DNA of 64,000 bases from Echinarachnius parma. Taxonomy: Eukaryota; Echinodermata; Echinoidea; Clypeasteroida; Echinarachniidae. Positions 2,306 through 56,808 of the stretch are shown piece by piece. The notes under the pieces are model-generated. The model did no database searches. It had not been told where the DNA came from and saw nothing but the letters and a program-made list of their open reading frames with translations. A program made the position numbers and the translations under genes. Within the stretch, counting starts at the first letter, position 1, and every line of letters starts with the position of its first letter. The DNA lies in assembly GCA_037951105.1 (NCBI GenBank), contig JBAMJV010001823.1:1-64000 (forward strand), read 5' to 3'.

Positions 2306-2336
2306 ATGGAGAAATCAAGAAGAAAACTTCATCAAG
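2306..2336 (+). CDS. Predicted first coding exon of the zinc-finger locus
   Basis: This 31-nt exon encodes MEKSRRKLHQ plus one base. The ATG at 2306 has G at -3 and +4, a good animal start context. The exon ends at a GTATAC donor at 2337. Its phase (one base over) fits the acceptor at 5077/5078 exactly, giving a Gln-Asp join and an uninterrupted frame through the next two exons into exon A. CpG-richer sequence at about 2150-2250 could hold the transcription start. The exon is too short to be recognised by similarity, so the call rests on phase, donor and start context. A start at the in-frame ATG inside the next exon is the main alternative. Confidence 0.45.
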
Positions 2337-3929
2337 GTATACTGACTGTTGTAACATGTTTATATTCAAGCTTATGAAATCTATGGATTGTCTTTACCCT
2401 TTAGCCTTGATGTGGCGTTATGTTTGTGTGTTTTGGCTTGTTTATGGGAACGCGATTGCATGAATGAAATGCTGTGTGCGATTTATATTGAGTTGAACGG
2501 CAAAATAAACGCAGTCGTTCCGCCGTCAGGCCACCCCATGTTTTCGCTGGGTGCCGGTGAAGCTCGGTGTATGCATTATGCTCACAATCTGTCTCATTTA
2601 TCATCAGCGAAATTGTGCATTTCCCATTTCATATCTGATGGCCTTTAATTTAACCATGGATTGTATGCTGATGAGTGATGATGTGTAAAAATAAAGGCAG
2701 TGTATAAAGCTAAAGACACGAGTGTGGTTGTATTATACACTTCCAAAAATAAATGGAAACCAATTTGACTTCGTATTATTTTTATGAAGATTATCATACT
2801 ATAGTATTAGTAATTAATGTAGATCGACAAATCTAGCGCTTTCATGGCCTCTTTGTCTTTGACATGTTTGACTTTGACATTTTATTACTGACATAATTTT
2901 TACTAACTAGTTGGCTTTCTCGGTAAAATACGTCAGTATGATCATGATGCGGTGTCCGAATAGGAATATGCCATGGCCCCCCTAATTTTTAACAATCGAT
3001 ATCTGAAAAACTAAGTCAGTAAAAAATATAATGCTGTAACTGACCTTGATGATCGGATCGAAAAATCGGATCGGCAAATCCTTGATTCATGATCGGATCG
3101 GATCGGAAAAGTTTTTTTTTTTTTTTTTTTTTTCTTCTTTACCTTCTTTTTCTTTTCTTTCTTCAAGATTTTGTTTCCCCCCTCTGCATGATTCTCAACA
3201 TTTGTTCTCCCCTTTGTTCCTCTTCCTTTTCAAATGTAACTGGCCCAAACAACAAATTTACGCTTACAGCCTACAGGCCCGAGAAAACAAAGAAAAACCA
3301 AAAGAAAGACATTTGATTTTGAAATTTTTATATTTGACAGGAAGAAAATTATGAAGGAAGAATAAATAGAAAGTAAAAATCTACAAGTTATCAACATCAT
3401 TTTAAGAAAAGAAAGGTGTTAAAAAGCCAAGATAGTATAAATGATTAATAAAAGTAATAAAACAAGCACACAGAATGGACAAAGTCAAAGATAAATAGAA
3501 AAATCTTTAAAAGTTGATTGTTTTGTAATTTGTTTCCTGCTATTTTTGCTAAGAAAACAAAATCACATGATAAGTACCGTAGTGGCTAGAGAACTCGGCC
3601 AGTCGATCACACACAGCACAGTGCGCCAACGATAAAATTGTTCCCATTTCAGTGTTGAGCGCGCGTTAAGTAAAAACGTGCAATATTTCTGTTTCATAAG
3701 CCAATGACATTAGGTCATTAAATTCCGAATATAACTACTTTGGGCTATTTAAAAAAAAATGTACACCAACAGATTCGGAATCTACAGAATTTTTTCTTTC
3801 GATTAAGCCTGGTGTCTCAAAAATGTATATGAAATTTTCACAAACCTCGAGTTTCTGACATAAGGCACCGGACTAAATTAAATTAGGAACATACTTAGCT
3901 TAGGTATACCATAAACAGGGCTCCACACA

Positions 3930-4173
3930 AATTTCCCTTTCGTTACAAAGATAAGAAAAACTCCGGGGGAGTTTTGAAACCGTGTACAAAGTGAGTGCAG
4001 TGAGTTAGTGAATATCACTTTGCCTTTTTCGCTCATTACTTGGCCATGCAATGTCCATTTGACTTGAAATTTTCACACAATACCCTGTGGACATATGAGA
4101 TAACAGAAATATACATTGCATCAACCATTCATCACCTTTTGCACATCTCAACAAAGTTACTAGATCCCTTTAA
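3930..4173. mobile_element. MITE-like element, 'CTAGTAAC' family, 5' end missing
   Basis: The right end GTTACTAGATCCCTTT and about 240 bases of interior closely match the copy at 37228-37612. The left inverted repeat is missing. Other members lie at 10358, 18533, 23103, 37228 and 51311. Confidence 0.6.
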
Positions 4174-4298
4174 ACACCTGAGGTTGTGAAATAACATGCG
4201 AGCGAGAGAGCTTGAAAATTTTAGCAATTTCACATCGGCAAATCCCCAAATCCCGGAAAAAATGAGGGAGAAAAGAAGGGAAAGGAATAAATGAAAAA

Positions 4299-4386
4299 AG
4301 GGACCCATGTCTAAGGGTTTTTTTTTTTTAATGGGACCCATGTCTAAGGATTTTTTTTATGAAAAGGGGACCCATGTCTAAGGATC
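4299..4386. repeat. Short tandem repeat, three units
   Basis: Three copies of a GGGACCCATGTCTAAGG core separated by T-rich spacers. Confidence 0.75.
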
Positions 4387-5077
4387 TTTCTTTAAAAAGT
4401 CACCCTTCCCAGCGGCACATCCCCGTATACCCAATATACGTGAGTACCCCCCCCCCCCTTGGGGATTGTAATTGTCCCGTAATGCCGATTTGCATTTCAC
4501 TGCACAACAAAATCACATTGATTAATATGGCCCCCCTTTTTAAAGTCTGTTTTCTTTGAAAAATAATACATTTTTTCCAATGAAAGTGGTATCAAAGTGT
4601 TCTTAAAATCCTGAAGATTTAATTTATCCACAAAACATTTGTATAAACGTGACAAATCTGCCAAATCTGAGCCAATTCTGAAACCATGTCATTTATTCCC
4701 TTGTGCAACAAAAATTCCCATTCATTTGTACACACTTGACTATGAGCGCGCAGAAGATGATTCTTGCTTGCGCGATGAGTCTTATTGCGCTTACCACAAA
4801 GGAAAATAGATAAGCAAATGAACTTTAATATGTATGGCAAATGTTGATTTTTACAGGCCTGCGACATTTTTTTCTCTATGGCAATGTACGATAATACTCT
4901 ACTCAGAGGACTGTACTGCACTTGGAAGAAGAAGAAGAAGACGTGTGCATTGTGCGTGTCTACAAAATATGACTTTGATGTGAATGTTGCATACTGAGCT
5001 AGAGTTAGGCTTGCACTGTAACATTCCATATTTATGAAGTCAAATTTGTATCTAATTTTCACACTTTTTTTTTACAG

Positions 5078-5197
5078 ATATCCCAGATGTATGGGACTGC
5101 TTGATGCAACGCAACCGAAGCATCTTAATTCAGGCCTTTCATCATGAAAGCAAGACGGTTATTCAAAAGTTACTAAAAGGAGAAACTACATTGAGTG
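5078..5197 (+). CDS. Second coding exon of the zinc-finger locus
   Basis: The exon is bounded by a T-rich tract with TTTACAG and by a GTAAGT donor at 5198. Only one of three frames is open (39 codons, starting IPDVWDCLMQRN and ending KGETTLS). It begins with two bases and ends with one base over, so it chains to the exons on either side. The peptide looks mainly helical, with hydrophobic residues spaced through it, and I recognise no family. It contains an in-frame ATG (LMQRN) that could be an alternative start. Confidence 0.65.
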
Positions 5198-5644
5198 GTA
5201 AGTTTACTTTTGTATAATTACTGGATTTACTAGTACTTTGGTATTTGCAATGTGACAAATTTTTTTTTTACCTAGCTCTGTAATCAATTGCAAATATATT
5301 TAAGTGTATAGCTGTATTTTGCATCTAAAATTAATACTGAAAAATTGATGATCAATGATAATAATATATTTAATAATAATTATTATTATTATTATAATAA
5401 TAATAACTATATAAAGAAATAATTTTAATAGAAAATAATTTGTTTCCAGTTTATATGCTATAAAATGATATCATTGATAATCATCTCTCAAGTGCTTTAA
5501 ATTATTATCCCTGTCTACTTGAATACATACTCGCTGCTCCTTTGGGATACTTCGGCCTAATGCATTTTTGTAGCCATGGGGAAAACGGAGAGAAACTGAC
5601 CAGAAAGTAATCATTAATGAAAAATGGACCAAAAAAAAAAAAAA

Positions 5645-5702
5645 AAATTGGTTACCCGAGGATTCTGGATTGACCGGTGCTCTACCAACTGAGCTAGGAA
5701 TA
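5645..5702 (-). repeat. tRNA-derived sequence (minus strand), decayed
   Basis: On the minus strand this reads TAGCTCAGTTGGTAGAGCA, a good match to the internal A box of a tRNA promoter. The B box is decayed. It mirrors the plus-strand copy at 5758-5826, so the two form an inverted pair. Confidence 0.5.
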
Positions 5703-5757
5703 TAGCTTCTGACCATCATGAATAATGAAGATGGTTTCAGGTACGAATGACAGATTG

Positions 5758-5826
5758 GCTCCTAGCTTAGTTGGTAGAGCACCGTTATAGCAATCCAGAA
5801 GATCTCTGGTTCAAATCCTGGAAAAG
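5758..5826 (+). repeat. tRNA-derived sequence or SINE head
   Basis: Contains TAGCTTAGTTGG (A box) and GGTTCAAATCC (B box) at tRNA spacing. The T-arm stem does not pair properly, so a working tRNA is unlikely. A tRNA-type SINE head or a tRNA pseudogene fits better. Confidence 0.5.
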
Positions 5827-5881
5827 ATTCTTTTATTCAGTGAATTTTTCATTATTATGGTTTTTTTCTTTTGGTTTCCAG

Positions 5882-5974
5882 AGAGACGTGCTGTTGGAAA
5901 CTTCCTTGTTGAAGTTGGAGCAGTTCAGCTTACAGTGAAGCGCGATCCAATAAAACAGGAGCCCTTGTCCACAG
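5882..5974 (+). CDS. Third coding exon of the zinc-finger locus
   Basis: The exon sits between a TTTCCAG acceptor and a GTATGT donor at 5975. Its open frame begins RRAVGNFLVEVG and ends DPIKQEPLST. It starts with two bases and ends with one (G), and that G joins the TT at the start of every large zinc-finger exon to make a Val codon. The segment IKQE fits the psi-K-x-E consensus for SUMO attachment, which is common in transcription regulators, but that function is inferred. This is the last exon before the first zinc-finger exon and the likely shared splice donor for exons A-D. Confidence 0.7.
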
Positions 5975-7073
5975 GTATGTTCAGTTAACCCGTTCACTAC
6001 GACATTCTAAAATCCCCATAGACTTTGTACACAGCCAAACCCGGTTCCTGTAGTCAACGGTTCAACTTTGTGGGACAAATGTGTACTATAATAGGGGATA
6101 TATTGTTCTGGCTCTGAAATAGTCGCCAGCTTCAGCATACCTAGGCACACCATTACAAACCAAACTTTCATGATGATACTACAGGTATCGATTATAAGGA
6201 ACTCGATTATAACGAGGTACGAATCCCTTGGTCCCGATTGTTTTGACTTGCGTTCGTATGGCATAGTGCCTCGCTTGTAACAAGCTCTTTCTGCTAATGC
6301 ATATTCAAAGAAAAACATAAGATATAGAATTGACCTGAGCTTACGAGGTATCAAATTCGACCCGCCGCCAACTTGTGAAATGTGCAATCTTTCAGAAAAC
6401 GTTGATATGTGGCAAAGTTTTTGCTCACTCAGCTGAAAGCATGCAATGCAGAGATAGTATCACACACAATAATGATCATCGTACAGTACACACACACATG
6501 CACCCTATAGACCTATACACTCTCGCTCTTGTCCCCTCTCCTTATTCTTCATATGTATCCGTTGTTCTCTCTCCCTCTCTCTGTCTCTCTCTGTCACAAT
6601 AGCTGGTTAAGCCCTAGGCCTGGGTACCCACTAAGTTGACCCTAGTTAGCAACTCTAAGATCTTGTGTTTAATTCATAGCCACGTCGTCAAGGTGTCTGA
6701 CGGTACTTTGGATTACCTTGTCTTGCTTTTGTAATAAATTCAGCGCATCAATCCTTTAGAATGAATAAACATGATCTTGTGATTAAGAAATACCCCCAAA
6801 CCTGCCTTAGTGGCCACCTGCCTGTAGCAGCCAACCTGCCTATAGAGTATAGATAGAAATAGTGATCCCTTCCAAGGAAAAACAAGGTTATGGAACCTGT
6901 CTATAGATGGTGGTCCTGGATTTTGTATACAGTGGTCACTTTTCTTGTTTCACTAATATGGGTGGTTACTATACATAGGTTTGACTGTACTTGCATTTTG
7001 ATTTGTAGTTCTGATGTTCATGAGTGTGACTGTGTGTGACTCATGTCCAGATTTTTGTTTCTAATTTGTACAG
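5975..7073 (+). other. Intron before zinc-finger exon A
   Basis: Holds a partial GATTATAACGAGG-type element (about 6180-6330), a CA/TC-rich patch (about 6485-6600) and an inverted-repeat element ending in GGTTTGACTGTA (6797-6994). The 3' end is the pyrimidine tract TTTCTAATTTGTACAG, which is repeated with little change in front of exons B, C and D. Confidence 0.55.
6797..6994. mobile_element. Dispersed element with CAGTCAAACCT/AGGTTTGACTG ends
   Basis: Contains runs of GTGGCCACCTG and CTATAGACAGG words and ends in GGTTTGACTGTA. Related copies lie at 46419-46615, 46930-47048 and 63010-63153. Confidence 0.55.
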
Positions 7074-10000
7074 TTGAAGTGCACTACAATAGGACATATC
7101 CTGCAAGCACTCCAAAGACCACAGATGCGCCAAGGCACGGTGCTGATACCACAAAAGAATGGAACAGCCCCAAGAAGACTAAACGAACAGAGTTTGCTGA
7201 AACTCCAAACCAAGCTGCTTCTGGTACAGAAACAACGTATGAACCATTACCGAATATCAGCAGAGAAGAACTCGGCAGTTCTGCTGTAGCTGCCTTTGAT
7301 GATGGTATGGTTGATGATGATGATGACGAAGATGTTGGTGGGGGTTTTGGCATTGCGGAAGATGACTTGAATGGAGTGGAGCAATGTGAACAAGAAGTGA
7401 CTGGCACCACAAAAGAAGGCAGCAGTGAGATTAGAGTTGAAGGCAGACCAGCAAATATTGACACCAAAAAAGTGGATATTGCCACCAGACAAGCAGACAT
7501 TGACAACATACCAGGGGATATTGACACCACACCAGCAGATATTGACACCGGACAAGCGAATATTGACACCAGACAAGGGGATATTGACACCAGACAAGCG
7601 AATATTGACACCAGACATGGTGATATTGACACCAGACAAGCCAATATTGACACCAGACAAGTGATTAATGACACCAGACATGGTGATATTGACACCAGAC
7701 AAGCGAATATTGACACCAGACCAGCGGAAACTGACAATAGTCTAGTCGACATTGTCCTACACTGCTGCACTATTTGCAATGCGATTTTCCCCACTCAATG
7801 GGAACTAGACTTACATGCTGTCCGGTGCAAAACCGAAATTGCCGCAACCGTGCATTATAACTGCCATTTATGCGAAAAAACATACAAGGCACGAACGTGG
7901 ATGTCGTACCATCTCCTCAAGGCCCATGGTATGACGATCACAGAGATTGCTGAAGAGATGCCCAGCCTGAGGGGTCTTAAGAGCAAGAGTAGAGTGAAGC
8001 GTCGGTGGTTGCGGAAGAAGAAAAAAGGGGGAGGCAGGAGGAAGGTGACTTCAAAAGAAGCAGACACAAACTCTGACAAACCCATTAACAAAGACTCCAG
8101 TAGAAAGAGTACAAGATCATCTTTGAGGAAGAGAACAAGAGTGGCAAGGCTTTCAGGAGGGGACGATAGCTGTGATGAGTCGCCCACACGCAATAAGCGC
8201 ACGGTCAGTCGGTCACGTAAGGAGAAAAAAGCTGGTAAAAAGAGGACTTGGAATATTGAGGAGCCAGATGCAAATTACTGTGGTGTCAGCACTAGTGGAA
8301 AGAGTAGAAGAGCATCGCTTAGAAGAAGTTTGAGGGCAAGGAGGCCTTTGGTCAAATATGCAATAGGAGATGACCAAGACTCTTCAGAGGAAGGAGGGCA
8401 TGATGCTGACATAACTGGTTCATCAACTGACACCATTGAGTCAAGTGGAAGCCAAAATGAAAATGGTCTTGTAGATAATAGTTCAGGTGAAAAAGGTGGT
8501 GATGAGGCAAATGAAATGGAACAAGTCAACAGAGTAGCAGAAGCTGGAGACACACCTGACATTGATGGTTCTTTTCAAGAGGCATGTATTGCTGGGAACG
8601 ATTCCAACAAAGTTGTGAATTCTTCACACGACTCTGCAGATAAGGCTACATTGGATGATGAGACAGTCTCGCAGGAAGGAGAGGTGAAGCCCTTGAAAGA
8701 AGATGAGGTTTCTGATGTCTCTGATCAAGACAATGATGAAGATAGCAGTGAAGAGAGTGATGCTCAGAAGGAGGACATCAGTCAAAGCTCTTTCACAGAA
8801 AACCAAGCTTGTGAACCAAGTGGTACAGGAAATAAGAGCAAGAGAAGAAGAAATAATAAAGAACAGAAATCTTTGTTTGCATGCCAATTTTGTGGGGAGG
8901 AGTTTAACACACATTTGCGGGTTAAATCCCATATGAGCGATGTACACTTCAAAGATAGATATAAATGCAATACATGTGGCAAGGTTTGCAAAAATATTCG
9001 AACACACCTGAAACATTTAAAGACACATGGTGAGAAACATGCATGCCCTTTCTGCTCCAAATCTTATCGTAGTGAGGTTGTCTATCGTAGGCATTTAGCG
9101 AAGCATAAGTCTGACAGTAAATCCGATAATTTCATCTGCACATTTTGTGATCAGAAGCTGGCCAACAGGGCATCATTGCAAATACATGTGAATTCCCTCC
9201 ACACAAAAGAAAAGAAATTCCTGTGTACCCATTGCGACAGGGTATTCTACATAAAGGGACGGTTCAAATCTCACATGAAGGGGCATACAGAGGGTAGAAA
9301 GTGGAAATGTGATCTGTGTGATCTAGCATGGGTTGAGAAATGGCAAATGAAAGCGCACAAAAAAAGAGTTCACTACGACACATGTTCATATCTGTGTCAC
9401 TTGTGTGGCAATTCGTACAAATCACTTGAAAACTTGACTCAGCACAACAAAACTGCGCACACAGACACCTTTGATTTCCCTTGTGGCATCTGTGGGAAGC
9501 AATTCAAGAGAAAGACTCTTTTGAACGCTCACATGAAAGTGCATAATGACGTTAGACCACACAAGTGCGGGTTGTGCGAGAAGGCATTCCGAACCCGATC
9601 CCAGCTAGGTGTGCACATGAAATGGCACAACAACGAGCGGGATTTCAAATGCAGTTTGTGCGACATGTGCTTTCTGACCAAGTGCAACATGGACAAGCAC
9701 ATGCAAATACACCAGAAGACAAAGGCGCACTTCTGCACCGAGTGCGGATATGGGTGCGTGGATTACACCATGCTGCGCAAACATCTGGCCACAAACCACA
9801 ACATCGTTGTGGAGAGCAAGTTAACAAAGGGCAGTCATTCTTACAGGACAGCTAAGCGAAAAGGCTCAAAGAAAGCTGCCAACTCTACAAACAAGGAGCC
9901 TTTCGGAGATAAAGTTCCAACGGACACATCAAATAGTCCCACAGAAGATGACCGAGCTACTGACTCCCTACCCAGCATTACTGTGGAGAGTGGAGTTTCT

Positions 10001-10132
10001 CATGTCCTTGTAACCCAGGCACCTGCTATTGCTGGGAACTATTCATACACGGGGGAAATACCAAACCCAACCTGCGACGAAGAAGGCCAGGCCATTGCCA
10101 CTCAGGCCTTCATGAATATGATCCTTCGCTGA
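7074..10132 (+). CDS. Large zinc-finger exon A (13 C2H2-type fingers), 3' exon
   Basis: Probably a nuclear DNA-binding transcription regulator. From the acceptor at 7073 the frame runs 3059 nt to a TGA. Spliced to the three upstream exons it gives a 1100-residue protein. In order it has an acidic patch (7310-7390), a 7-residue repeat of the D/N-IDTRQ-A/G type with about 13 units (7450-7735), and two N-terminal fingers (7756-7925; the first ends His-x3-Cys). These are followed by one EEMPSLRG motif, a basic nuclear-localisation-like stretch with KSRVKRRWLRKKKK, and a long Ser/Glu/Asp-rich region. Eleven C2H2 fingers (about 8877-9805) and a tail ending AFMNMILR complete it. An ATG at 7043 lies in the pyrimidine tract and could start an unspliced form, but exon B lacks an equivalent. 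Exon C is the closest relative. Confidence 0.85.
7450..7735 (+). repeat. Coding 21-bp minisatellite in exon A
   Basis: About 13 units of 21 bp, each encoding a heptapeptide such as DIDTRQA or NIDTRHG. Exons B, C and D keep about 4, 3 and 6 units. The unit length is a multiple of three, so gains and losses stay in frame. Confidence 0.85.
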
Positions 10133-10357
10133 AAGAATACATGCGTCGTTGATTAACATTGAACCACGTTCTTTTCACCTGTTTGTGTATCCATATATTT
10201 ATCTAAATGTCCCTCAATCACTAGGTTACTGCGATAGCCGGCTATCTCATTGACAGCAGCTGGGTCTTTATCCCTGCAGTCAACTATGCCACACTCCAGG
10301 CTTCATGTACATGATAAGTCAGTACAGGACCTATAGACCTCATCGATGAATGCATTA

Positions 10358-10952: not shown

Positions 10953-11505
10953 AACAAAAATTAATAGATGAATTGTATGAATATGCTATGAAAGCCGATG
11001 GTGAATATGTCTTCGTACATACAGACCCATGAACGCATGCTTTAGAATGGTGATGCGTTTTCCAATTACATATTTTTTTCTGGAAACATATTTTTGTGAA
11101 CTTGTTGGTGGAATGGAATACTAAAGATGTTACCTTTCATTTATAAGTCTTAACCTAGAATTGAATCACCCCCTGGTTTATTGGAACAAAGGGAGATGAG
11201 GGAAGAAGTAAAGTATCTATCTCATTTTAAACCAAAGTGAAAATAACATCACTCTGTTGTGTGTATTATAGTACAGTGGAACCTCATTATAACGAGCACA
11301 CTAGGCCCATTGAATTTACATTTATGATGCTGGTTGTCAAAATAAATCCAATGCATCAATATTTTCTGTATTATATAAACTTTTCTATTTTGTTTTTACA
11401 CCATATATTGAAATTCCATGATTTCTTGAAAATATACTGGCATTTGTAGTCCTGTGGGGTTTTCAGTGTTATTTAAGTCCAGATTTTTGTTTCTAATTTG
11501 TACAG

Positions 11506-14500
11506 TTGAAGTGCACTACAATAGGACATATCCTGCGAACACTCCAAAAACCACAGATGTGCCAAGGCATCCTGCTGAAGCCAGAGAACAATGGAACAGC
11601 CCCAAGAGAACTGAAGGAACAGAGTTTGCTGAAACTCCCATCCAAGCTGCTTCTGGTACAGAAGCAACATATGAACCATTACCGAATATCAGCAGAGAAG
11701 ATCTCGGCAGTTGTGCTGTAGCTGCCTTTGATGATGGTAAGGTTGTTGATGATGACGACGATGATGATGTTGGTGGCAGTTTTGACATCGATGAAGATGA
11801 CTTGAATGGAGTTGAGCAAAGCCAAGAAGTGACTGCTATCTCAAAAGAAGGTCGCTGTGCAGACAGAGATGAAAACATCACACCAGCCGATACTGGCACC
11901 AAACAAGGGGATATTGACACCAAACAAGGGAATATTGACACCAGACAAGCACACATTGACAACATACCAGGGGATACTGGCAATAGTCTAGTCAACATTG
12001 TCCTACACTGGTGCACACTTTGCAATGCGACTTTCCCCACTTCATGGGAACTAGACTTCCATGCTGTCCGGTGCAAATACCAAAAGTCTGCAACCATGCA
12101 GTATTGCTGCCATATGTGTGAAAAAACATACCAGGCAAGAGGGAACATGTCATACCATCTCCTCAGTGCCCATGGTATGACGATCACAGAGATTGTTGAA
12201 GAGTTGCCAAGCCTGAGGGGTCCTGTAAAGAGGAAGATTGTTGAAGAGATGCCGAGCCTGAGGGGTCCTGTAAAGATGAAGATTGTTGAAGAGATGCCGA
12301 GCCTGAGGGGTCCTGTAAAGAGGAAGATTGTTGAAGAGATGCCGAGCCTGAGGGGTCCTGTAAAGAGGGAGATTGTTGAAGAGATGCCGAGCCTGAGGGG
12401 TCCTGTAAAGCGGAAGAGTAGAGTGAAGCGTAGGTTGTTGCAGACGAAGAAAAACGCTGGAGGAAGGACAAAGCTGACTTCAAATGAAGCAGATGCCAGT
12501 CCCTCTGACAGAATCATTAACAAAGACTCCGGTGGAAGGAGTACAAGATCATCATTGAGGAAGAGGACAAAAGTGGCAAGGCTTTCAGGAGGGGACGATA
12601 GCTGTGATAAGTCGCCCACAAGCAGTAAGCGCAAAGTCAGTTGGTCACATACAAATAAATCTGGTGAAAAGAACAAACCGAATGTAGAGGAAACAGACAC
12701 AAGTAACTGCGCTGGTGTCAGTTTCAGTGGACATAGTGGAAGAGCATCACTTAGAAGAGGTTTGAGATCAAGGAGAGATTCTGTCAAGAATAGAAGTGGA
12801 GATGACCAAGAGTCTTCAGAGAAAGGAGAGCATAATGCTGACGTCATTGGTTCATCGACCGACATCATTGAATTAAGTGGAAGCCAAAATGAAAATGTTC
12901 TTTTGGCAGTTAGTTCAGGTGAAAAAAGCAGTGATGAGGCCAATCAAATGGAACAAGTCAACAGTGTAGCAGAAGCTAGAGACACATCTGACATTGATGG
13001 TTCTTTCCAAGAAGCATGTATTGCTGATAACGATTCCAACAAAGTTGTGAATTCTGCACACTGTCCTGCACATAAGGTTACATTGCATGATGAGGAAAAA
13101 GATGAGGTGCAACCAGTGGAGGAAAGTGAGGTTTCTGATGTCTTGGATCAAGAGAATGATGAAGATAGCAGTGAAGAGAGTGATGCTCAGGAGGAGGACC
13201 TCAGTCAAACAGGAAATAAGAGCATAGGAAGAAGACAAAAATGTAGACTTTGTGGGGATGAGTTCAACACAAAACGCGGTGTTCGTGTACATATGAGCGA
13301 GGTACACTACAAAGATAAATATAAATGCAGTACATGTGGTGAGGTGTGCAAAGATATTCCAGCATATATACAACATTTAAAGACACATGGTGAGCCTAGT
13401 GAACTGGATCAAGCCAAAGTTTGCCCTCACTGCTCCAAAACCTATGTCATTGAGGCTTGCTTTCGTAAGCATTTAGCGGAGCATGAGGCTGACAGTAGAT
13501 CTGCAGATTTTATCTGCACAATTTGTGATAAGAAGCTATCCAGCAAGGGGGCATTGCAAAAGCATGTGAATTACCGCCACACAAAAGAGAAGAAATATCC
13601 ATGCACATATTGTGACAAGGTACTCTACCAGAAGTGTGCGTTCACTTCTCACATGAAGGGGCATACGGTGGGTAGACAGTGGAAGTGTGACCTGTGTGAT
13701 CAAGCATTTGTTGAAAAATGGAGAATGGAAGGGCACAAGAAAAGAGTTCACTTTGACACAAAGTCATATCTGTGTGACTTGTGTGGCACTTCGTACAAAT
13801 CCCTTGGAAGCTTGACTCAGCACAACAAAACTGCGCATACAGACACCTTTGACTTCCCTTGTGGCATCTGTGGGAAGCAATTCAAGAGAAGGAGCCATTT
13901 TAACACTCACATGAAAGTGCATAACGACGTTAGACCATACAAGTGCGGGTTGTGTGAGAAGGCATTCCGAACCCGCCCGAAACTCGCTGTGCACGTGAAA
14001 TGGCACAACAACGAGCGGGATTTTAAATGCAGTTTGTGCGACAAGTGTTTTCTGACCAAGGGCAACTGTGACAAGCACATGCAAATACACCAAAAGAAAA
14101 AGACGCACTTCTGCACCGAGTGCGGATATGGGTGCGTGGATTACACCACACTGCGCAAACATCTGGCCACAAACCACAACATCATTGTAGAGAGCAAGGT
14201 GACAAAATGCAGTAATTCTTACAGAACAGGTAAGCGGAAAGGCTCAGAAAAAGCTGCCAACTCCGCGAACAAGGAGCCTATCGGAGATAAAGTTCCAACG
14301 GACACATCAGATAGTCCCATTGAAGATGACCGAGCTACTGACTCCCAACCCAGCACTCCTGTAGAGATTGGAGCTCAATATCCTGTAGATGGATCCATGA
14401 ATTCGTCGTCTGGTGTTGCTACTGTAAGCAGCACACCACCTGTAGATAGAGACAGAGTTCCAACTGACGTACCGAATGGTCCCACAGAAGACGACCAAGC

Positions 14501-14732
14501 CACAAACTCTCTACACAGCATTAATATGGAGGGCAGAGCTCAGTATCCATTCAGTGAATCTACGAATTCATCTTGTGGTGTCGCTACTGTAAGCAGCACA
14601 ACACATGATCCTATGTATACAAATTCCTTTTCTCATGTCCCTGTAACCACGGGGGAAATCCCAAACCCAACCTGCGACGAAGAAGGTCAGGCTATTGCGA
14701 CTCGGGCCTTAATGAATATGATTCTTCACTGA
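11506..14732 (+). CDS. Large zinc-finger exon B (13 C2H2-type fingers), 3' exon
   Basis: Probably a nuclear DNA-binding regulator and a paralogue of exon A. The frame runs 3227 nt from the acceptor to TGA, and spliced to the three 5' exons it encodes 1156 residues. Two N-terminal fingers lie at about 12004-12175. Five in-frame copies of a 15-residue unit around IVEEMPSLRGPVKRK follow (12191-12415). A KSRVKRR basic motif, a Ser/Glu-rich region and eleven C2H2 fingers (about 13240-14185) come next. The tail carries two related Thr/Ser-rich segments (SSSGVATVSST, SSCGVATVSST) and ends ALMNMILH. There is no ATG near the start: upstream in-frame codons begin at a GTG, and the first internal Met lies well inside, near the second finger. 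This is the best evidence that the exon needs splicing from upstream. Exon D is the closest relative. Confidence 0.85.
12191..12415 (+). repeat. Coding 45-bp minisatellite in exon B
   Basis: Five 45-bp units, each encoding a 15-residue EEMPSLRGPVK-type peptide. Exons A, C and D carry 1, 2 (20522-20611) and 3 (26050-26184) units. The unit is basic at one end and may extend the nuclear-localisation region, which is inference. Confidence 0.85.
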
Positions 14733-16420: not shown

Positions 16421-16441
16421 GTTGTACTAGACATAACATAT

Positions 16442-17947: not shown

Positions 17948-18346
17948 AGTATCGGAGATAAAGCTCCAACGGACACATCAGATAGTCCCACAGAAGATGA
18001 CAGAGCTACTGACTCCCTACCCAGCATTAATGTGGAGGTAGGAGCTCAATATCCCGTCAGTGGATCCATGAAGTCATCTTCTGGTGTTGCTACTGTAAGC
18101 AGCACACCACATGATGACAGAGACAGAGTTCCAACTGACATATCAAATGGTCCCATGGAAGACAACCTTGCCACAAACGCTCTACACGGCATTAATGTGG
18201 AGAGTGGAGTTTCTCATGTCCCTGTAAGCCAGGCACCTGCTATTGCTGGGAACTATTCATACACGGGGGAAATACCAAACCCAACCTGCGACGAAGAAGG
18301 CCAGGCCATTGCCACTCAGGCCTTCATGAATATGATCCTTCGCTGA
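17948..18346 (+). pseudogene. 5'-truncated zinc-finger copy E
   Basis: An open frame of about 132 codons nearly identical to the last part of exon C, from IGDKAPTDTSDSP to AFMNMILR and TGA. All fingers and the acceptor are missing. The left boundary falls at a TATC shared by the flanking spacer and the zinc-finger sequence, which suggests a microhomology junction. It has no start of its own and is best called a pseudogene fragment. Confidence 0.75.
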
Positions 18347-18532
18347 AAGAATACATGCGTCGTCGTTGATTAAAATTGACCAACGTTCTTTTCACCTGTT
18401 TATGTATCCACTAGATTTCTCTAAATACAGCAGCTGCGTCTTACTCCATACAGTCCACTATGTCACAGTCCAGGCCTTCATGTACATGATAAGTCATTGA
18501 AGGACCTAGAGACCTCTCCGCTGAATGCTTTT

Positions 18533-18903
18533 AAAGGGAACTAGTAACATTGTCAAAATCCACAAAAATTACCTATAACCCCTGTGGTTCTCGCATATCT
18601 TATGGTATTTGTAGATGTATAATACCAATAGAAGCATGGAACAGATTTTGATTTTTTACGTTGCTCTTTCATTATATGTATGATTGTAGTGTTTGGATTT
18701 TAAATACACTACATGTAGTAGAGAATTTCAACAGTGTACAATACCACTTTGCATTTTGGCTCATTACTTGGTCTTACATGTATGAAACTCATTTACCATG
18801 AAAATTTCATACATTACTCAGTGGACACATCAGATTACAGAAATACACATTTTATCAACCCACTTCCAGTCCTTGCACATGTCAATAAAATTACTAGATC
18901 CCT
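18533..18903. mobile_element. 'CTAGTAAC' MITE, uninterrupted copy
   Basis: AAAGGGAACTAGTAACATTG at the left and AATTACTAGATCCCT at the right. This copy is the reference empty site for the insertions in its sister copies at 10358 and 23103. Confidence 0.7.
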
Positions 18904-19428
18904 AACATTAATAGATGAATAGTATGAATATGCTATATAGCCGATGGTGAATATGTCTTCATGTATAGACCCATGAACGCATGCTTTAGAATGGTGATGC
19001 GTTTTCCAATTATTTTTTTTTTTTTTGGAAACATATTTTTGTGAACTTATTGGTGGAATGGACTACTAAAGATGTTACCTTTCATTTATAAGAATGTTTA
19101 GGTGATGGTCCCATTTAAGTCTTCACCTAGAATTTAATAATAAGAGACTGGGAAAGATGTAAATTATCTATCTCTATTTAAACGAAACTGATAATAACAT
19201 CACTCTGTTGTTTATACATGTACTATAGTACAGTGGAACCTCATTATAACGAGCACACTAGGCCCATTGAATTTACATTTATGATGCTGGTTGTCAAAAT
19301 AAATCCAATGCATCAATATTTTCTGTATTATATAAACTTTTCTATTTTGTTTTTACATCGTATATTGAGATTCCATGATCTCTTGAAAATAGATTGCATT
19401 TGTAGTACTGGGGGTTTTCAGTGTGACT

Positions 19429-19829
19429 CGGGTCCAAAACTTTGGAATTCCCTCGCACCCCATTTAAAAAGCGCTTCATCCTTAAATGTATTCAAACACA
19501 AATATAAAGACACACTTTTGAGCACACCAGATCCACTATTGTAATGTTAATATAGGTATAATCTCTCTTTTCCCCTTTTCACCCCTACTCCCTTTCTTTC
19601 ATTTTAGTATCTGTATTTGTACGTGCTTATTTTGAGGCAGTCGCTTCTCTGGGGACCATACCCACCAAGATTTGTTCATCTTTAATTATGGTCCCTTCTC
19701 CTATTCCTATTTCATTTATTTGTATTGTGCAATTGTTGTATTTATGTATTATTCATTTGTCTTGTTTTACATTGTAAATTATATTCTTATTTTGGTTTTA
19801 TGAGTCAATAAATGAAATGAAATGAAATG
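19429..19829 (+). mobile_element. 5'-truncated non-LTR retrotransposon 3' end
   Basis: Encodes a short stretch beginning GPKLWNSLAPHLKSASSLNV and continuing to a Phe-Lys-rich end and stop. This is typical of the C-terminus of LINE reverse-transcriptase proteins. About 280 nt of 3' UTR and a terminal run of GAAAT repeats follow. The repeat tail ends directly against TCCAGATTTCTG, the start of the exon C acceptor region. The copy is dead (no reverse transcriptase core). Confidence 0.75.
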
Positions 19830-19857
19830 TCCAGATTTCTGTTTCTAATTTGTACAG

Positions 19858-22800
19858 TTGAAGTGCACTACAATAGGACATATCCTGCGAGTACACCAAA
19901 GACCACAGATGTGCCAAGGCATCCTGCTGAAGCCAGAGAACAACGGAACAGCCCCAAGAGAACTGAAGGATCAGAGCTTGCTGTAACTTCAATCCAAACT
20001 GCTTCTGGTACAGAAGCAACGTATGAATTATTACTGGATATCAGCAGAGAAGATCTCGGCAGTTCTGCTGTAGCTGCCTTTGATGATGGCAAGGTTGTTG
20101 ATGATGACGACGATGATGATGTTGGTGGCAGTTTTGACATCGATGAAGATGACTTGAATGGAGTGGAGCAAAGCCAAGAAGTGACTGCCACCTCAAAAGA
20201 AGGCAGCGGTGAGCTTAGAGTTAAAGACAGCAGACCAGCAGATATTGACACCAGACAATGGGACATTGACACCAGACATGGGGATATTGACACCAGACCA
20301 GGGGATACTGGCAATAGTCTAGTTGACATGGTCCTACACTGCTGCTCACTTTGCAATGCGACTTTCCCCACTCCATGGGAACTAGATTTCCATGCTGTTG
20401 GGTGCAAATACCAAAAGTCCGCAACCATGCAATATAACTGCCATTTGTGCGAAAAAACGTACCAGGCGAGAGGGAATATGTCATACCATCTCCTCAGTGC
20501 CCATGGTATGACGATCACAGAGATTGTAGAAGAGATGCCAAGCCTGAGGGGTCCTATAAAGAGGAAGATTGTTGAAGAGATGCCAAGCCTGAGGGGTCCT
20601 GTGAAGAGGAAGAGTAGAGTGAAGCGTAGGTGGTTGCCAAAGAAGAAAAACGCTGGAGGAAGGACAAAGCTGACCTCAAATGAAGCAGACGCCAGTACCT
20701 CCGACAGAATCCTTAACAAAGACTCCAGTGGAAGGAGTACAAGATCATCATTGAGGAAGAGGACAAAAGTGGCAAGGCTTTCAGGAGGGGACGATAGCTG
20801 TGATGAGTCGCCCACACGCAATAAGCGCAAAGTCAGTTGGTCGCATACAAATGAATCTGGTGAAAAGAGAAAACCAAATGTAGAGGAACCAGACAGAAGT
20901 AACTGCGCTGGTGTCAGTCACAGTGGACATAGTGGAAGAGCATCACTTAGAAGAGGTTTGAGATCAAGGAGATATTCTGTCAAGAATAGAAGTGCAGATG
21001 ACCAAGACTCTTCAGAGAAGGGAGAGCATGATGCTGGCGTCATTGGTTCATCAAGTGGAAGCCAAAATGAAAATGGTCTTGTGGCTATGAGTTCAAGTGA
21101 AAAGGGTGGTGATGAGGCCAATCAAATGGATCAAGTCAACCAAGTAGCAGAAGCTGGAGACACATCTGCAATTGGTTGTTCTTTCCAAGAGGCATGTATT
21201 GCTGAGAACGATTCCAACAAAGTTGTGAATTCTGCACACGATCCTGCAGATAAGGTTACATTGGATGATGAGACGGTCTCGCAGGAAAACAGAGAGATGA
21301 AGCCCTTGCAGGAAGATGAGGTTTCTGATGTCTCTGATCAAGACAATGATGAAAATAGCAGTGAAGAGAGTGATGCTCAGGAGGAGGACCTCAGTCAAAC
21401 AGGAAATAAGAGCATAGGAAGAAGAAATAAATGCAGACTTTGTGGGGATAAGTTTAACACACAACGCGGTGTTCTAGTGCATATGAGCGAGGTACACTTC
21501 AAAGATAAATATAAATGCAATACATGTGGCGAGGTGTGCAAAGATATTCCAGCATATATACAACATTTAAAGACACATGGTGAGCCTTCTGAACTGGATC
21601 GAGCCAAAGTTTGCCCTCACTGCTCCAAAACCTATGTCATTGAGGCTTGCTATCGTAAGCATTTAGCGGAGCATGAGGCTGACAGTAGATCTGCAGATTT
21701 TATCTGCACAATTTGTGATAAGAAGCTATCCTCCAAGGGGGCATTGCAAAAGCATGTGAATAGCTGCCACACAAAAGAGAAGAAATATCCATGCACATAT
21801 TGTGACAAGGTATTCTACCTGAAGTATGCATTCAATTCTCACATGAAGAGACATACGGTGGGTAGACAGTGGAAGTGTGACCTGTGTGATCAAGCATTTG
21901 TTCAAAAATGGGAAATGGAAGGGCACAAGAAAAGAGTTCACTTTGACACACATTCATATCTGTGTGACTTGTGTGGCACTTCGTACAAATCCCTTGGAAG
22001 CTTGACTCAGCACAACAAAACTGCGCACACAGACACCTTTGATTTCCCTTGTAGCATCTGTGGGAAGAAATTCAAGAGAAGGACTCAATTGAACTATCAC
22101 ATGAAAGTGCATAATGACGTTAGACCACACAAGTGCGGGATGTGCGAGAAGGCATTCCGAACCCGATCCCAGCTAGGTGTGCACATAAAATGGCACAATA
22201 ACGAGCGGGATTTTAAATGCAGTTTCTGCGACATGTGCTTTCTGACCAAGTGCAACATGAACAAGCACATGCAAATACACCAGAAGACAAAGACGCACTT
22301 CTGCACTGAGTGCGGATATGGGTGCGTGGATTACACCACGCTGCGCAAACATCTGGCCACAAACCACAACATCATTGTGGAGAGAAAGTTAACAAAGGGC
22401 AGTAATTCTTCCAGGACAACTAAGCGAAAAGGCTCAAAGAAAGCTGCCAACTCTGCAAACAAGGAGCCTATCGGAGATAAAGTTCCAACAGACACATCAG
22501 ATAGTCCCACAGAAGATGACCGAGCTACTGACTCCCTACCCAGCATTAATGTGGAGGTAGGAGCTCAATATCCCGTCAGTGGATCCATGAAGTCATCTTC
22601 TGGTGTTGCTACTGTAAGCAGCACACCACATGATGACAGAGACAGAGTTCCAACTGACATATCAAATGGTCCCACGGAAGACAACCTTGCCACAAACTCT
22701 CTACATGGCATTAATGTGGAGAGTGGAGTTTCTCATGTCCCTGTAAGCCAGGCACCTGCTATTGCTGGGAACTATTCATACACGGGGGAAATACCAAACC

Positions 22801-22865
22801 CAACCTGCGACGAAGAAGGCCAGGCCATTGCCACTCAGGCCTTCATGAATATGATCCTTCGCTGA
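19858..22865 (+). CDS. Large zinc-finger exon C (13 C2H2-type fingers), 3' exon
   Basis: Probably a nuclear DNA-binding regulator. The frame runs 3008 nt from the TTTGTACAG acceptor to TGA, and spliced to the shared 5' exons it encodes 1083 residues. It has three heptad units (about 20239-20305), two N-terminal fingers (20334-20510), two 15-residue units, a KSRVKRRWLPKKK basic motif and a Ser/Glu-rich region. Eleven C2H2 fingers (about 21429-22370) and the AFMNMILR tail follow. The tail matches exon A and relic E. The upstream ATG at 19827 comes from the junction with the retrotransposon tail and is not conserved in exon B. Confidence 0.85.
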
Positions 22866-23102
22866 AAGAATGCATGCGTCGTTGTTTGTTAACATTTACC
22901 CACGTTCTTTTCACCTGTTTGTGTATCCACTAGATATATTTCTCTAAATAATGTCCCTCCATCACTGGATTACTGCGATGGCCGGCTATCTCGTTGACAG
23001 CAGCTGGGTCTTTATCCCTGCAGTCCACTATGCCACACTCCAGGCCTTCATGTACGTGATAATTCAGTGAAGGACCTAAAGACTTGTCTGACGAATGCAT
23101 TT

Positions 23103-24238
23103 AAAGGGAACTACTTGTAGTAACATTGTCAGCATCCACAAAATTTACCTTTAACCCCAGTGGTTCTCACATATCTCGTGGTATTTGTAGATGTATTTTT
23201 TACCAATAGAAGCATGGAACAGATTTTGATTTTCCACGTTGCTCTTTCATTATATGTATGATTGTAGTGTTTGGATTTTAAATACATGTAGTTGAGAATT
23301 TCAACAGTGTACAATACCACTTTGCATTTTGGCTCATTAATTGGTCTTACATGTATGAAACTCATTTACCATGGAAATTTCATACATTGGGCCATTCTTG
23401 GTCACGTGTGTGACCCAAAACATGACAAATTTTGAAATGGGATGCTTATATTTCAGTAAGTATGAGACTGTAATGATTTTTACTTCATATGTGACTTGAA
23501 TATGTTGTAGTCTTTCAAACTTAACACAAAAGATTTTATAAGGATTACGTAACTCAATGTCAGAGGTCAAATGGCATGGGTCACGTGTGTGACTTCGCAC
23601 GGAGCGCTTTTTTCATAACTAAATTTCATTTGGAAAATTTCTTTAAAATATGAATAGCTATAATGTTCATCTTATTACCAGAGAAGTACTGTACATTTGT
23701 AAGTACAACAATAGCAATGAATGAGAATTATATCAAACCGTTGTTTTTTATAGTACTTAATTATGTGGCAACGTCTGGTCACGTGTGTGACATTTTGGGG
23801 TGGTCACGTGTGTGACATGTACAATATGAATGGAAAAATGGGAATTTTATAATATCAGGTTTAGAAAAGAATTTTTACAAAGTTGGTATCAACCTGTACA
23901 GGAAAGTGAGAAGAATGAGCTTGCTAATTATCCTTTTGATATCTTGATTATTTTCTGAATTATGATTATTAGAAAAATATTGAAATATGTAAATTTATGA
24001 AAATGAGTAAAAAAGTTTCATTTTAAACTTCAAATCATGTATTTCATGAAACTTTACACATGGATCATTCCAAAAATGGAACAAAACTACAGAAAAATAA
24101 AACTTCAATTTTTCCGAAAAAGTTTCACTTTTCAAAGAATGGCCCATTACTCAGTGGACATACCAGATTACAGAAATACACATTTTATCAACCCACTGCC
24201 AGTTCTTGCACATGTCAATAAAATTACTAGATCCCTTT
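23103..24238. mobile_element. 'CTAGTAAC' MITE split by a later insertion
   Basis: The left half (23103-23388) and right half (24146-24238) together match the uninterrupted copy at 18533-18903. Confidence 0.7.
23389..24145. mobile_element. 757-bp DNA element with GGGCCATTCTT ends
   Basis: Terminal inverted repeats are GGGCCATTCTT and AAGAATGGCCC, with a 3-bp ATT target duplication on both sides. The empty site is seen at 18533-18903. Inside are four copies of GGTCACGTGTGTGAC or close variants. There is no transposase frame, so it is non-autonomous. A PIF/Harbinger-like origin is possible from the 3-bp duplication, but unproven. Confidence 0.8.
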
Positions 24239-24297
24239 AAAAACATTAATAGATGAATTGTATGAATATGCTATAATAGCCGATGGTGAATATGTCT

Positions 24298-24795
24298 AAG
24301 GCCCCTGTTACACATGCGTCGGCTTTTAAAACCGGCCCCGTGGCCGGTCTCACGCCTGCAATTTTAAGCCGCCTCGAGATCATTAAACCCCTGTTACACA
24401 CGGCAGAACCCCTGTACATCTATTCACACGATTCACGTTGATCGGGCCTCATACCCATATACGGCTCTGCTCATACCATATAAGTTTTGGCATCCGCGCG
24501 TCCTTTTATCCCATATTAGGCAGATTATGCTCAACACTTCCTTATAATTCCTTATTGCGCGCAGTATGCGCGCGCTGCAAGCGCATTTGCATATAAATGC
24601 CGGCCCAAGTCCAACTTACCCCTGTTACACATACCGATTGCGGGACTGAGGCTGGCTTCAAACCATATCCAGAGGTGGACAGAAATGGAGCCGGCCTCAG
24701 GTCGGCTTTTCAAAATTGACCCCTGTTACACATACATGGGGCCGCCTACGGAGGCGGCCTCAGTCCACTTCAGAGGTATGTGTAACAGGGGTCTT
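24298..24795. mobile_element. About 500-bp element with CCCCTGTTACACAT repeats
   Basis: The ends read TAAGGCCCCTGTTACACAT and ATGTGTAACAGGGGTCTTA, an imperfect inverted repeat. At least two further direct CCCCTGTTACACA copies occur inside. Sister spacers lack it (AATATGTCTT runs on to the AGACCCATGAACGC segment). Confidence 0.65.
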
Positions 24796-25316
24796 ATACA
24801 GACCCATGAACGCATGCTTTAGAATGGTGATGCGTTTTCCAATTAAAAATTTTTTCTGGAGACATACTTTGGTGAACTTGTTGGTGGAAGGGACTACTAA
24901 AGATGTTACCTTTCATTTATAAGAATTTTAATTTTGGGGTGATGGTCCCCTTTAAGTCTTAACCTAGAATTTAATCACCCCCTGGTTTATTGGAACAAAG
25001 GGAGACTAGGGAAGAAGTAAAGTATCTATCTCTATTTAAACCAAAGTGATAATAACATCACTCTGTTGTGTGTACTATAGTACAGTGGAACCTCATTATA
25101 ACGAGCACACTAGGCCCATTGAATTTACATTTATGATGCTGGTTGTCAAAATAAATCCAATGCATCAATATTTTCTGTATTATATAAACTTTTCTATTTT
25201 GTTTTTACATCATATATTGAAATTCCATAATCTCTTGAAAAAATACTTGCATTATTTGTAGTCCTGAGGGTTTTCTGTGTTATTTATGTCCAGAGTTTTG
25301 TTTCTAATTTGTACAG

Positions 25317-28300
25317 TTGAAGTGCACTGCAATATGACATATCCTGCGAGCACTCCAAAGACCACAGATGCGCCAAGACATCCTGCTGAAGCCAGAGAAC
25401 AACGGAACAGCCCAAAGAGAACTACAGGAACAGAGATTGCTGAAACTCCCATCCAAGCAGCTTCTGGTACAGAAGCAACGTATGAACTATTAACGGAAAT
25501 CAGCAGAGAAGATCTTGGCAGTTCTGCTGTAGCTGCCTTTGATGATGGTAAGGTTGTTGATGAAGATGACGATGACGATGATGATGTTGGTGGCAGTTTT
25601 GACATCGATGAAGATGACTTGAATGAAGTGGAGCAAAGCCAAGAAGTGATTGCCACCTCAAAAGAAGGCAGTGGTGAGCTTAGAGTTAAAGACAGCAGAC
25701 AAGCAGATATTGACACCAGACAAGGGGATATTGGCACCAGACAAAGGAATATTGACACCAAACAAGGGAATATTGACACCAAACAAGGGAATATTGACAC
25801 CAGACAAGCATACATTGACAACATACCAGGGGATACTGGCAATAGTCTAGTCAACATTGTCCTACACTGGTGCACACTTTGCAATGCGACTTTCCCCACT
25901 TCATGGGAACTAGACTTCCATGCTGTCCGGTGCAAATACCAAAAGTCTGCAACCATGCAGTATTGCTGCCATATGTGTGAAAAAACGTACCAGGCAAGAG
26001 GGAACATGTCGTACCATCTCCTCAGTGCCCATGGTATGACGATCACAGAGATTGTTGAAGAGTTGCCAAGCCTGAGGGGTCCTGTAAAGCGGAAGATTGT
26101 TGAAGAGATGCCGAGCCTGAGTGGTCCTGTAAAGAGGGAGATTGTTAAAGAGATGCCGAGCCTGAGGGGTTCTGTAAAGAGGAATAGTAGAGTGAAGCGT
26201 AGGTTGTTGCCGACGAAGAAAAACGCTGGAGGAAGGACAAAGCTGACTTCAAATGAAGCAGACGCCAGTCCCTCTGACAGAATCATTAACAAAGACTCCG
26301 GTGGAAGGAGTACAAGATCATCATTGAGGAAGAGGACAAAAGTGGCAAGGCTTTCAGGAGGGGACGATAGCTGTGATAAGTTGCCCACAAGCAGTAAGCG
26401 CAAAGTCAGTTGGTCACATACAAATAAATCTGGTGAAAAGAAAAAAACGAATGTAGAGGAAACAGACACAAGTAGCTGTGCTGGTGTCAGTTTCAGTGGA
26501 CATGGTGGAAGAGCATCACTAAGAAGAGGTTTGAGATCAAGGAGAGATTCTGTCAAGAATAGAGGTGCAGATAATCAAGAGTCTTCAGAGAAAGGAGAGC
26601 ATGATGCTGACGACATTGGTTCATCAACCGACATCACTGAATTAAGTGGAAGCCACAATGAAAATGGTCTTGTAGATAATAGTTCAGGGGGAAAAGGTGG
26701 TGATGAGGCAAATCAAATGGAACAAGTCAACAGCGTAGTAGAAGCTGGAGACACACCTGACATTGATGGTTCTTTTCAAGAGGCATGTATTGCTGAGAAC
26801 GATTCCAACAAAGTTGTGAATTCTGCACACGATCCTGCACATAAGGTAACATTGCATGATGAGACAGTCTCTCAGGAAAAAGATGAGGTGAAACCAGTGG
26901 AGGAAGGTGAGGTTTCTGATGTCTCTGATCAAGACAATGATGACGATAGCAGTGAAGAGAGTGATGCTCAGGAGGAGGACCTCAGTCAAACAGGAAATAA
27001 GAGCATAGGAAGAAGAAAAAAATGCAGACTTTGTGGGGATGAGTTCAACACACAACACGGTGTGCATGTGCATATGAGCGAGGTACACTTCAAAGATAAA
27101 TATAAATGCAGTACATGTGGCGAGGTGTGCAAAGATATTCCAGCATATATACAACATTTAAAGACACATGGTGAGCCTAGTGAACTGGATCAAACCAAAG
27201 TTTGCCCTCACTGCTTCAAAACTTATGTTAGTGAGGCTTGCTATCTTAAGCATTTAGCGGAGCATGAGGCTGACAGTAGATCTGCAGATTGTATCTGCAC
27301 AATTTGTGATAAGAAGCTATCCTGCAAGGGGGCATTGCAAAAGCATGTGAATTACCGCCACACAAAAGAGAAGAAATATCCATGCACATATTGTGACAAG
27401 GTATTCTACCAGAAGTTTGCGTTCACTTCTCACATGAAGGGGCATACGGTGGGTAGACAGTGGAAGTGTGACCTGTGTGATCAAGCATATGTTGAAAAAT
27501 GGAGAATGGAAGGGCACAAGAAAAGAGTTCACTTTGACACAAAGTCATATCTGTGTGACTTGTGTGGCACTTCGTACAAATCCCTTGGAAACTTGACTCA
27601 GCACAACAAAACTGCGCACACAGACACCTTTGATTTCCCTTGTGGCATCTGTGGGAAGCAATTCAAGAGAAGGAGCCATTTTAACGCTCACATGAAAGTG
27701 CATAACGACGTTAGACCACACAAGTGCGGGTTGTGCGAGAAGGCATTCCGAACCCGCTCTAAACTCGCTGTGCACGTGAAATGGCACAACAACGAGCGGG
27801 ATTTTAAATGCAGTTTGTGCGACAAGTGTTTTCTGACCAAGGGCAACCTGGACAAGCACATGCAAATACACCAGAAGACAAAGGCGCACTTCTGCACCGA
27901 GTGCGGATATGGGTGCATGGATTACACCGCACTGCGCAAACATCTGGCCGCAAACCACAGCATCATTGTGGAGAGCAAGTTAACAAAGTGCAGTAATTCT
28001 TACAGGACAGGTAAGCGGAAAGGCGCGGAAAAAGCTGCCAACTCCGCGAACAAGGAGCCTATCGGAGATAAAGTTCCAACGGACACACCAGATAGTCCCA
28101 TTGAAGATGACCGAGCTACTGACTCCCAACCCAGCACTCCTGTAGAGATTGGAGCTCAAAATCCTGTAGATGGATCCATGAATTCGTCGTCTGGTGTTGA
28201 TACAGTAAGCAGCACACCACATGAGGAAAGAGACAGAGTTCCAACTGACGTACCAAATGGTCCCACGGAAGACGACCAAGCCACAAACTCTCTACACAGC

Positions 28301-28513
28301 ATTAATGTGGAGGGCGGAGCTCGGTATCCCTTCAGTGAATCTATGCATTCATCTTGTGGTGTCGCTACTGTAAGCAGCACAACACATGAACCTGTGTGTA
28401 CAAATTCCTTTTCTCATGTCCCTGTAACCACGGGGGAAATCCCAAACCCAACCTGCGACGAAGAAGGCCAGGCTATTGCGACTCGGGCCTTCATGAATAT
28501 GATCCTTCACTGA
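25317..28513 (+). CDS. Large zinc-finger exon D (13 C2H2-type fingers), 3' exon
   Basis: Probably a nuclear DNA-binding regulator and the closest paralogue of exon B. The frame runs 3197 nt from the TTTGTACAG acceptor to TGA, and spliced to the shared 5' exons it encodes 1146 residues. In order it has an acidic Asp run (about 25560-25590), six heptad units, two N-terminal fingers (25862-26035) and three 15-residue units (26050-26184). A basic segment, a Ser/Glu-rich segment, eleven C2H2 fingers (about 27020-27965) and a B-like tail ending AFMNMILH follow. Individual fingers differ from B mainly in and around the helix. Confidence 0.85.

Positions 28514-35953: not shown

Positions 35954-56808
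<20,855 letters not shown>

Follow-up and report, generated by a model that had tools for sequence, protein, structure and literature searches.

A window of 64,000 nt from the genome of Echinarachnius parma (assembly GCA_037951105.1, contig JBAMJV010001823.1, positions 1 to 64,000; contig C1822 in this work) was analysed. It contains a gene with three short 5' exons followed by four large exons in tandem, A to D, each of which encodes 13 C2H2 zinc fingers. With a probability of about two in three, this gene is one transcription unit in which several terminal exons are used alternatively behind a common N-terminus. One promoter and the three short exons would encode the N-terminus. In each transcript, the donor at 5974 would be joined to one of four tandem last exons of ~3 kb, which would supply a 13-finger module, a conserved C-terminus and its own stop. 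Next to this gene, on the minus strand, lies a divergent paralogue, P, with one finger exon. The exons and acceptors of the gene are the following.

2306..2336, plus strand: shared exon 1, 31 nt, encoding MEKSRRKLHQ plus one base; donor AAG/GTATAC (weak).
5078..5197, plus strand: shared exon 2, 120 nt; its homologue is exon 2 of P.
5882..5974, plus strand: shared exon 3, 93 nt; donor CAG/GTATGT; its homologue is exon 3 of P.
7058..7073, plus strand: acceptor of module A, TTTCTAATTTGTACAG.
7074..10132, plus strand: terminal exon A, 3059 nt, 13 C2H2 fingers, 1018 codons plus stop.
11490..11505, plus strand: acceptor of module B, TTTCTAATTTGTACAG.
11506..14732, plus strand: terminal exon B, 3227 nt, 13 C2H2 fingers, 1074 codons plus stop.
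19842..19857, plus strand: acceptor of module C, TTTCTAATTTGTACAG.
19858..22865, plus strand: terminal exon C, 3008 nt, 13 C2H2 fingers, 1001 codons plus stop.
25301..25316, plus strand: acceptor of module D, TTTCTAATTTGTACAG.
25317..28513, plus strand: terminal exon D, 3197 nt, 13 C2H2 fingers, 1064 codons plus stop.

An earlier note on this DNA had placed four exons of 3.0-3.2 kb at 7074, 11506, 19858 and 25317, with a common acceptor, phase and start. These coordinates and the acceptor 16-mer were confirmed. All four exons start with TTGAAGTG and, as also claimed, each is open up to its own single stop. On the plus strand of the window, the 16-mer TTTCTAATTTGTACAG had four sites when up to two mismatches were allowed, all of them exact and all at A to D. 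It was invariant in 8 of 8 copies when the counterparts of A to D on a second contig, C6721, were included. Exons 1 to 3 add up to 31 + 120 + 93 = 244 nt and encode 81 residues. The one base left over forms a Val codon with the TT of the large exon, so the predicted join to each of the four is in frame and the frame stays open, as the note had read it. Pfam zf-C2H2 was detected in all four exons (E 1e-25 to 6e-33), and the nucleotide divergence between copies was 5-16%.

The short exons were found once. Neither tblastn nor blastn with exons 1 to 3 revealed a further set of 5' exons on the plus strand of the window, in agreement with the earlier reading of the spacers. The assembly (1.2 Gb, 14790 contigs) was then searched with the 81-residue N-terminus, a search in which exon 1 is too short for detection. 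Eight matches were obtained at E ≤ 10. Four belonged to this locus (exons 2 and 3, each on C1822 and on C6721), and two were exons 2 and 3 of the minus-strand P on C6721 (E 1e-8 and 0.69); the remaining two were unrelated and weak (E 5.9). The match to exon 3 of P, with E 0.69 assembly-wide, had E 9e-7 against C6721 alone and 83% DNA identity over 64 nt. Exons 2 and 3 exist as a single set for the window gene, next to the C6721 copy and P, and the genome search for copies of exon 3 that the earlier note had proposed returned these three places, apart from the two weak matches. By codon usage, exon 2 was in the top 2.5% and exon 3 in the top 1.5% of random intronic frames. A Pfam scan of the 81 residues gave 0 families, with no BTB and no KRAB. 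Exon 3 includes an IKQE, which we take to be a sumoylation-type motif. Among 5.8 billion proteins, the N-terminal 330 and 83 residues had no relatives; D retrieved five generic multi-finger proteins at E ≤ 0.001 among the best 7985 candidates scored.

The contig C6721 is collinear with the window in long stretches, at ~94-99% identity, with all four large exons included (comparison restricted to pieces >400 nt and >93% identity). It most likely represents the other haplotype, and a very recent duplication would look alike. A to D are all open on C6721 too. Exon indels between the two contigs were all multiples of three (A: 3, 21, 150; B: 42, 6; C: 3, 18, 6; D: 6), and the ratio of non-synonymous to synonymous substitution rates (dN/dS) was 0.49 for A, 0.34 for B, 0.49 for C and 0.62 for D. 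The paralogue P, which beyond its first exon lies off the window contig, was located as follows.

2018..2054, minus strand: exon 1 of P, MKTSRKKARPHL, 37 nt, phase 1; spotted by eye.
2055..2305, between the strands: gap of 251 bp between the divergent start codons of P and the window gene.
C6721 49357-49238, minus strand: exon 2-like exon of P, 120 nt.
C6721 42758-42666, minus strand: exon 3-like exon of P, 93 nt.
C6721 39979-37071, minus strand: single finger exon of P, 2909 nt, 13 fingers.

When joined, the exons of P formed one open frame with a lone terminal stop. Exons 2 and 3 matched those of the window gene in lengths (120 and 93 nt) and phases, with dN 0.31 and dS 1.01 over 71 codons. 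Because P keeps the short-exon structure, the short exons are genuinely coding and the gene model is real. Because P has one finger exon, the simplest ancestor would have had three short exons and one finger exon; on this comparison, the window gene has multiplied its last exon only. The 251-bp gap probably acts as a bidirectional promoter.

The large exons carry marks of selection. In pairwise comparisons among A to D, none of the 65 exon indels was off-frame, versus 38 of 61 in the flanks; pairwise counts of this kind are interdependent, and repeat units make up many of the exon indels. Under neutrality, 8-11 stops per copy would be expected at 8-10% change and ~5 at 4.5%; none was observed. 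Among B, C and D, dN/dS was 0.47-0.50, and omega = 1 was rejected for the whole exon (p = 5e-6; kappa chosen from a grid in all omega tests). By region, the values were p = 0.006 for fingers 1-2, p = 0.001 for the tail, p = 0.17 for the linker and p = 0.11 for the main finger array. On this evidence, B, C and D are translated, with selection acting on the modules as wholes.

Change was concentrated at the DNA contacts. Zinc ligand positions were constant (0 of 52 varied) in nine sequences, A to D of both contigs and P, and the C-terminus IPNPTCDEEGQAIATQAFMNMILR was almost unchanged across all nine. Among A to D, 33 of 52 contact positions (-1, 2, 3, 6) varied versus 55 of 175 other finger positions (p = 4.5e-5); for B to D alone, the numbers were 15 of 52 and 29 of 175 (p = 0.07). 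At contact codons, dN exceeded dS when A was compared with the others (0.46-0.48 versus 0.34-0.42), and among B, C and D it was below dS in two of three pairs. Out of 52 contact positions, A differed from B at 32, from C at 29, from D at 28 and from P at 24. The differences were 10 for B-C, 8 for B-D and 14 for C-D. Since A is further from B, C and D in contact positions than it is from the far older P, the products should bind different DNA. They are likely to be, as far as the modules indicate, long-site DNA-binding regulators with a common N-terminal half.

The codons preceding the first Met of B bear on whether an upstream start is needed. This Met is exon codon 197, after finger 1 (codon 211 on C6721), so the earlier statement that B has no start codon near its beginning was correct. 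For these pre-Met codons, omega was 0.65 in the nine sequences including P (p = 0.0025; 0.63 and p = 0.0019 on a coarser grid) and 0.59 in B, C and D of both contigs (p = 0.03). Pairwise dN/dS up to the first Met of C was 0.40-0.78, and it was 0.42-1.11 for the first 77 codons. Between P and A, B, C and D, over 69 comparable of these 77 codons, dN/dS was 0.34-0.40 and dS 1.1-1.25, P being common to all four comparisons. A neutral simulation with 7% change per branch left all the pre-Met stretches of B, C and D free of stops with a probability of 0.019. Constraint on these codons is supported, with mixed results.

Several observations weigh against a single unit, and part of them come from these same codons. 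Omega = 1 was compatible with the pre-Met codons of B, C and D of the window contig (omega 0.62, p = 0.064), of A to D of both contigs without P (0.79, p = 0.23) and of A to D of the window contig (0.83, p = 0.36); for just the first 77 codons, p was 0.08-0.50 across all five sequence sets. The strongest pre-Met result rests largely on P, and the constraint may therefore partly predate the copies. The donor of exon 1 is weak (score 4.6). The first AATAAA or ATTAAA after the stop follows at 222 nt in A, 269 nt in B, 1231 nt in C and 2243 nt in D. Short in-frame repeats hold many of the exon indels and account in part for their being multiples of three. Unspliced starts would be permitted by an ATG that lies in frame 31 nt upstream of the acceptor in P and in both contig versions of A, C and D; codon 6 of exon D, an in-frame Met, would permit one as well. 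If such starts were used, A, C and D (and P) would also, or instead, have promoters of their own and yield finger proteins that begin MSRFLFLICT... and lack the common N-terminus, and B would have lost its start. We regard this as unlikely. The constant position of the ATG, the Met in D, a TATATAAA-like box in a 134-nt block before B, C and D, and the non-significant pre-Met tests are in its favour. B, however, has AAG at -31 on both contigs, and its frame is nonetheless intact; translation could begin at this site in A, C, D and P, but B offers no start there. Translated, the 31 nt give MSRFLFLICT for A and C, MSRVLFLICT for D, KSRFLFLICT for B, MSRFFFLICT for C on C6721 and MFMCFFVYIA for P. 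This 10-codon stretch was changed non-synonymously in D (F to V) and in C on C6721 (L to F), with one silent change in C on the window contig, whereas the 16 nt of the splice site never change. The homology of A also stops ~29-41 nt before the exon, which argues that no A promoter was copied along.

Somewhat less probable is that B, C and D are separate genes, each with a promoter of its own and non-homologous 5' exons within the spacers. The C-D spacer does hold four phase-1 ATG-to-donor candidates at score ≥ 6, a cut-off above the score of exon 1's own donor. One strong donor at 24775 (GAG/GTATGT) serves two of them, with ATGs at 24685 and 24736, inside an insert (24298-24795) that is absent from the other spacers. 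The A-B spacer, on the other hand, measures 1373 nt, is mostly common to the spacers before C and D, and has one candidate of 13 nt. The B-C spacer has none at score ≥ 6, and no homologue of exons 1 to 3 was found in the spacers. That A alone is used and that B, C and D are decaying copies appears very improbable. A truncated fifth copy at 17950..18427 demonstrates that copies do get lost, but the four frames are intact on two contigs, the zinc ligands are kept, and omega = 1 was rejected for the whole exons of B, C and D. The alternative that B to D are dead, raised by the earlier note, is unlikely on the same grounds. Its main proposal, a locus swapping 13-finger modules behind one N-terminus, held up with regard to the one 5' half, the four intact and selected modules, the diverged contacts and the structure of P; the splices from exon 3 to B, C and D themselves we infer. 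In a single transcription unit, the module would probably be chosen by competition between splicing and cleavage/polyadenylation at successive modules, according to the distance read by the polymerase and with A favoured, because the 16 nt are identical at all four acceptors. Trans-splicing is a possible route of joining.

The copies presumably arose by tandem duplication in the lineage of the window gene, after its split from the single-module P. A tree of nine finger exons rooted on P had the topology (A,(C,(B,D))) with supports of 99-100, and each copy paired with its C6721 counterpart. Sliding identity revealed mosaicism: the tail and 3' flank of C are A-like, and its body is B/D-like. Spacers preceding later copies share sequence with the 3' flanks of other copies. 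This sharing and the homology limits are expected from tandem duplication of a unit made of the end of intron 3, the last exon and the 3' flank. The following features belong to the array.

17950..18427, plus strand: truncated fifth copy, finger-exon tail only, 96% identical to the tail of C and open to its stop.
19425..19826, plus strand: insertion of ~400 nt just upstream of C, 31 nt before its acceptor; absent from the same place on C6721.
11267..11400, 19224-19357 and 25076-25209: block of 134 nt with the same sequence before B, C and D, opening with a dispersed repeat.

By eye, the insertion resembles what we take to be the 3' end of a long interspersed nuclear element (LINE). The 134-nt block sits in spacers that otherwise vary at ~1 column in 5, and an identical run of this length was reached by none of 20000 permutations. 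Its first ~53 nt are the dispersed repeat, which has a pogo/Tigger-like end, and before C on C6721 ~40 nt are missing from its middle. Roles as promoter, splicing selector and conversion tract were considered, and none was adopted. Pairing with the introns was unconvincing (equalled by 4 of 40 resampled blocks for intron 3, 14 of 40 for intron 1 and 26 of 40 for intron 2), and the C6721 copy of C lacks the middle part. As a coding exon it was discarded, with no phase-1 donor candidates at score ≥ 6. Past the stop of D, the open stretch 28611-28898 on the plus strand (VKMEQPSGPPEAQATASLCVLPVVTD...) resembles the C-terminal tail of P by eye, and it may be a leftover of an older tail.

Among known systems, vertebrate clusters of KRAB and tandem C2H2 genes evolve by tandem duplication and rapid change at DNA-contact residues, and as a rule whole genes are duplicated, the effector exon included. 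Here the finger exon alone was multiplied, and no KRAB was found. Clustered protocadherins and UGT1A join a constant part to a single exon drawn from a tandem set of large alternatives; in these, the 5' exon is variable and promoter-driven and the 3' part is constant. The window gene, with a variable 3' exon and a constant 5' part, would be their mirror image. Dscam-type mutually exclusive exons, of which docking-selector RNA pairing is a feature, are followed by a constant downstream exon, whereas a separate stop closes each window exon.

Drosophila lola and mod(mdg4) are described as trans-spliced, with a single terminal exon that varies (PMC3228551). According to a second account, mod(mdg4) has at least 30 isoforms, mostly with FLYWCH domains, 17 of the 20 lola isoforms have different C-terminal C2H2 fingers, and both N-termini carry a TTK-type BTB domain (PMC11426971). 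As far as these descriptions go, both genes share with the proposed reading of the window gene a fixed set of 5' exons, single terminal exons that vary, and isoform-specific DNA-binding fingers (PMC3228551, PMC11426971). They differ from it in their BTB domain, and their isoforms arise by trans-splicing; the window gene has no BTB, and its exons of ~3 kb carry 13 fingers each. The likeness suggested by the earlier note therefore holds in logic, but the N-terminus contains neither BTB nor another Pfam domain. Homologous 3'-terminal exons have been classed as probably due to multiple poly(A) sites and not to mutually exclusive splicing (type B, e.g. human capping protein beta; PMC3228551). The window exons are like these in length, phase, homology and the possession of an own stop, and the type B examples considered here are not multi-finger DNA-binding modules of ~1000 codons (PMC3228551). 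No report of tandem multi-finger terminal exons was found in the open-access literature searched.

If the joins are real, a repertoire of long-site DNA-binding proteins has been enlarged by copying the last exon of one gene, with promoter and effector half fixed. This would be a cheaper route than the duplication of whole zinc-finger genes, and the adjacent single-module P is a natural control for it. C2H2 fingers are very abundant in the assembly (11379 first-look candidates, of which 150 were scored). Some clusters occur twice (e.g. on C3042 and C3421), as expected if the assembly holds both haplotypes. Another array was seen on contig C6255, positions 1-9951, with three 15-finger open frames of 948-958 codons, ~3.55 kb apart and 94-96% identical. 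They start at a common acceptor-like AG/GTGATGG, and the array is truncated on its 5' side, where the contig ends. In the 10 kb that follow on C6255, no other frame had more than one finger. This second, three-copy array suggests a possibly recurrent gene design rather than one odd locus. Tentatively, and with more doubt than confidence, the window gene could be a cis-encoded cassette locus of a recurrent type, swapping whole 13-finger arrays behind one effector N-terminus and growing by last-exon duplication, with the scaffold kept and the base contacts diversified by selection.

Elsewhere in the window, Rfam and tRNA scans gave 0 matches. A p97/VCP exon (transitional endoplasmic reticulum ATPase, E 6e-23) lies on the minus strand at 39296-39535, and AAA-type open reading frames continue, by eye, to ~48 kb on the same strand.

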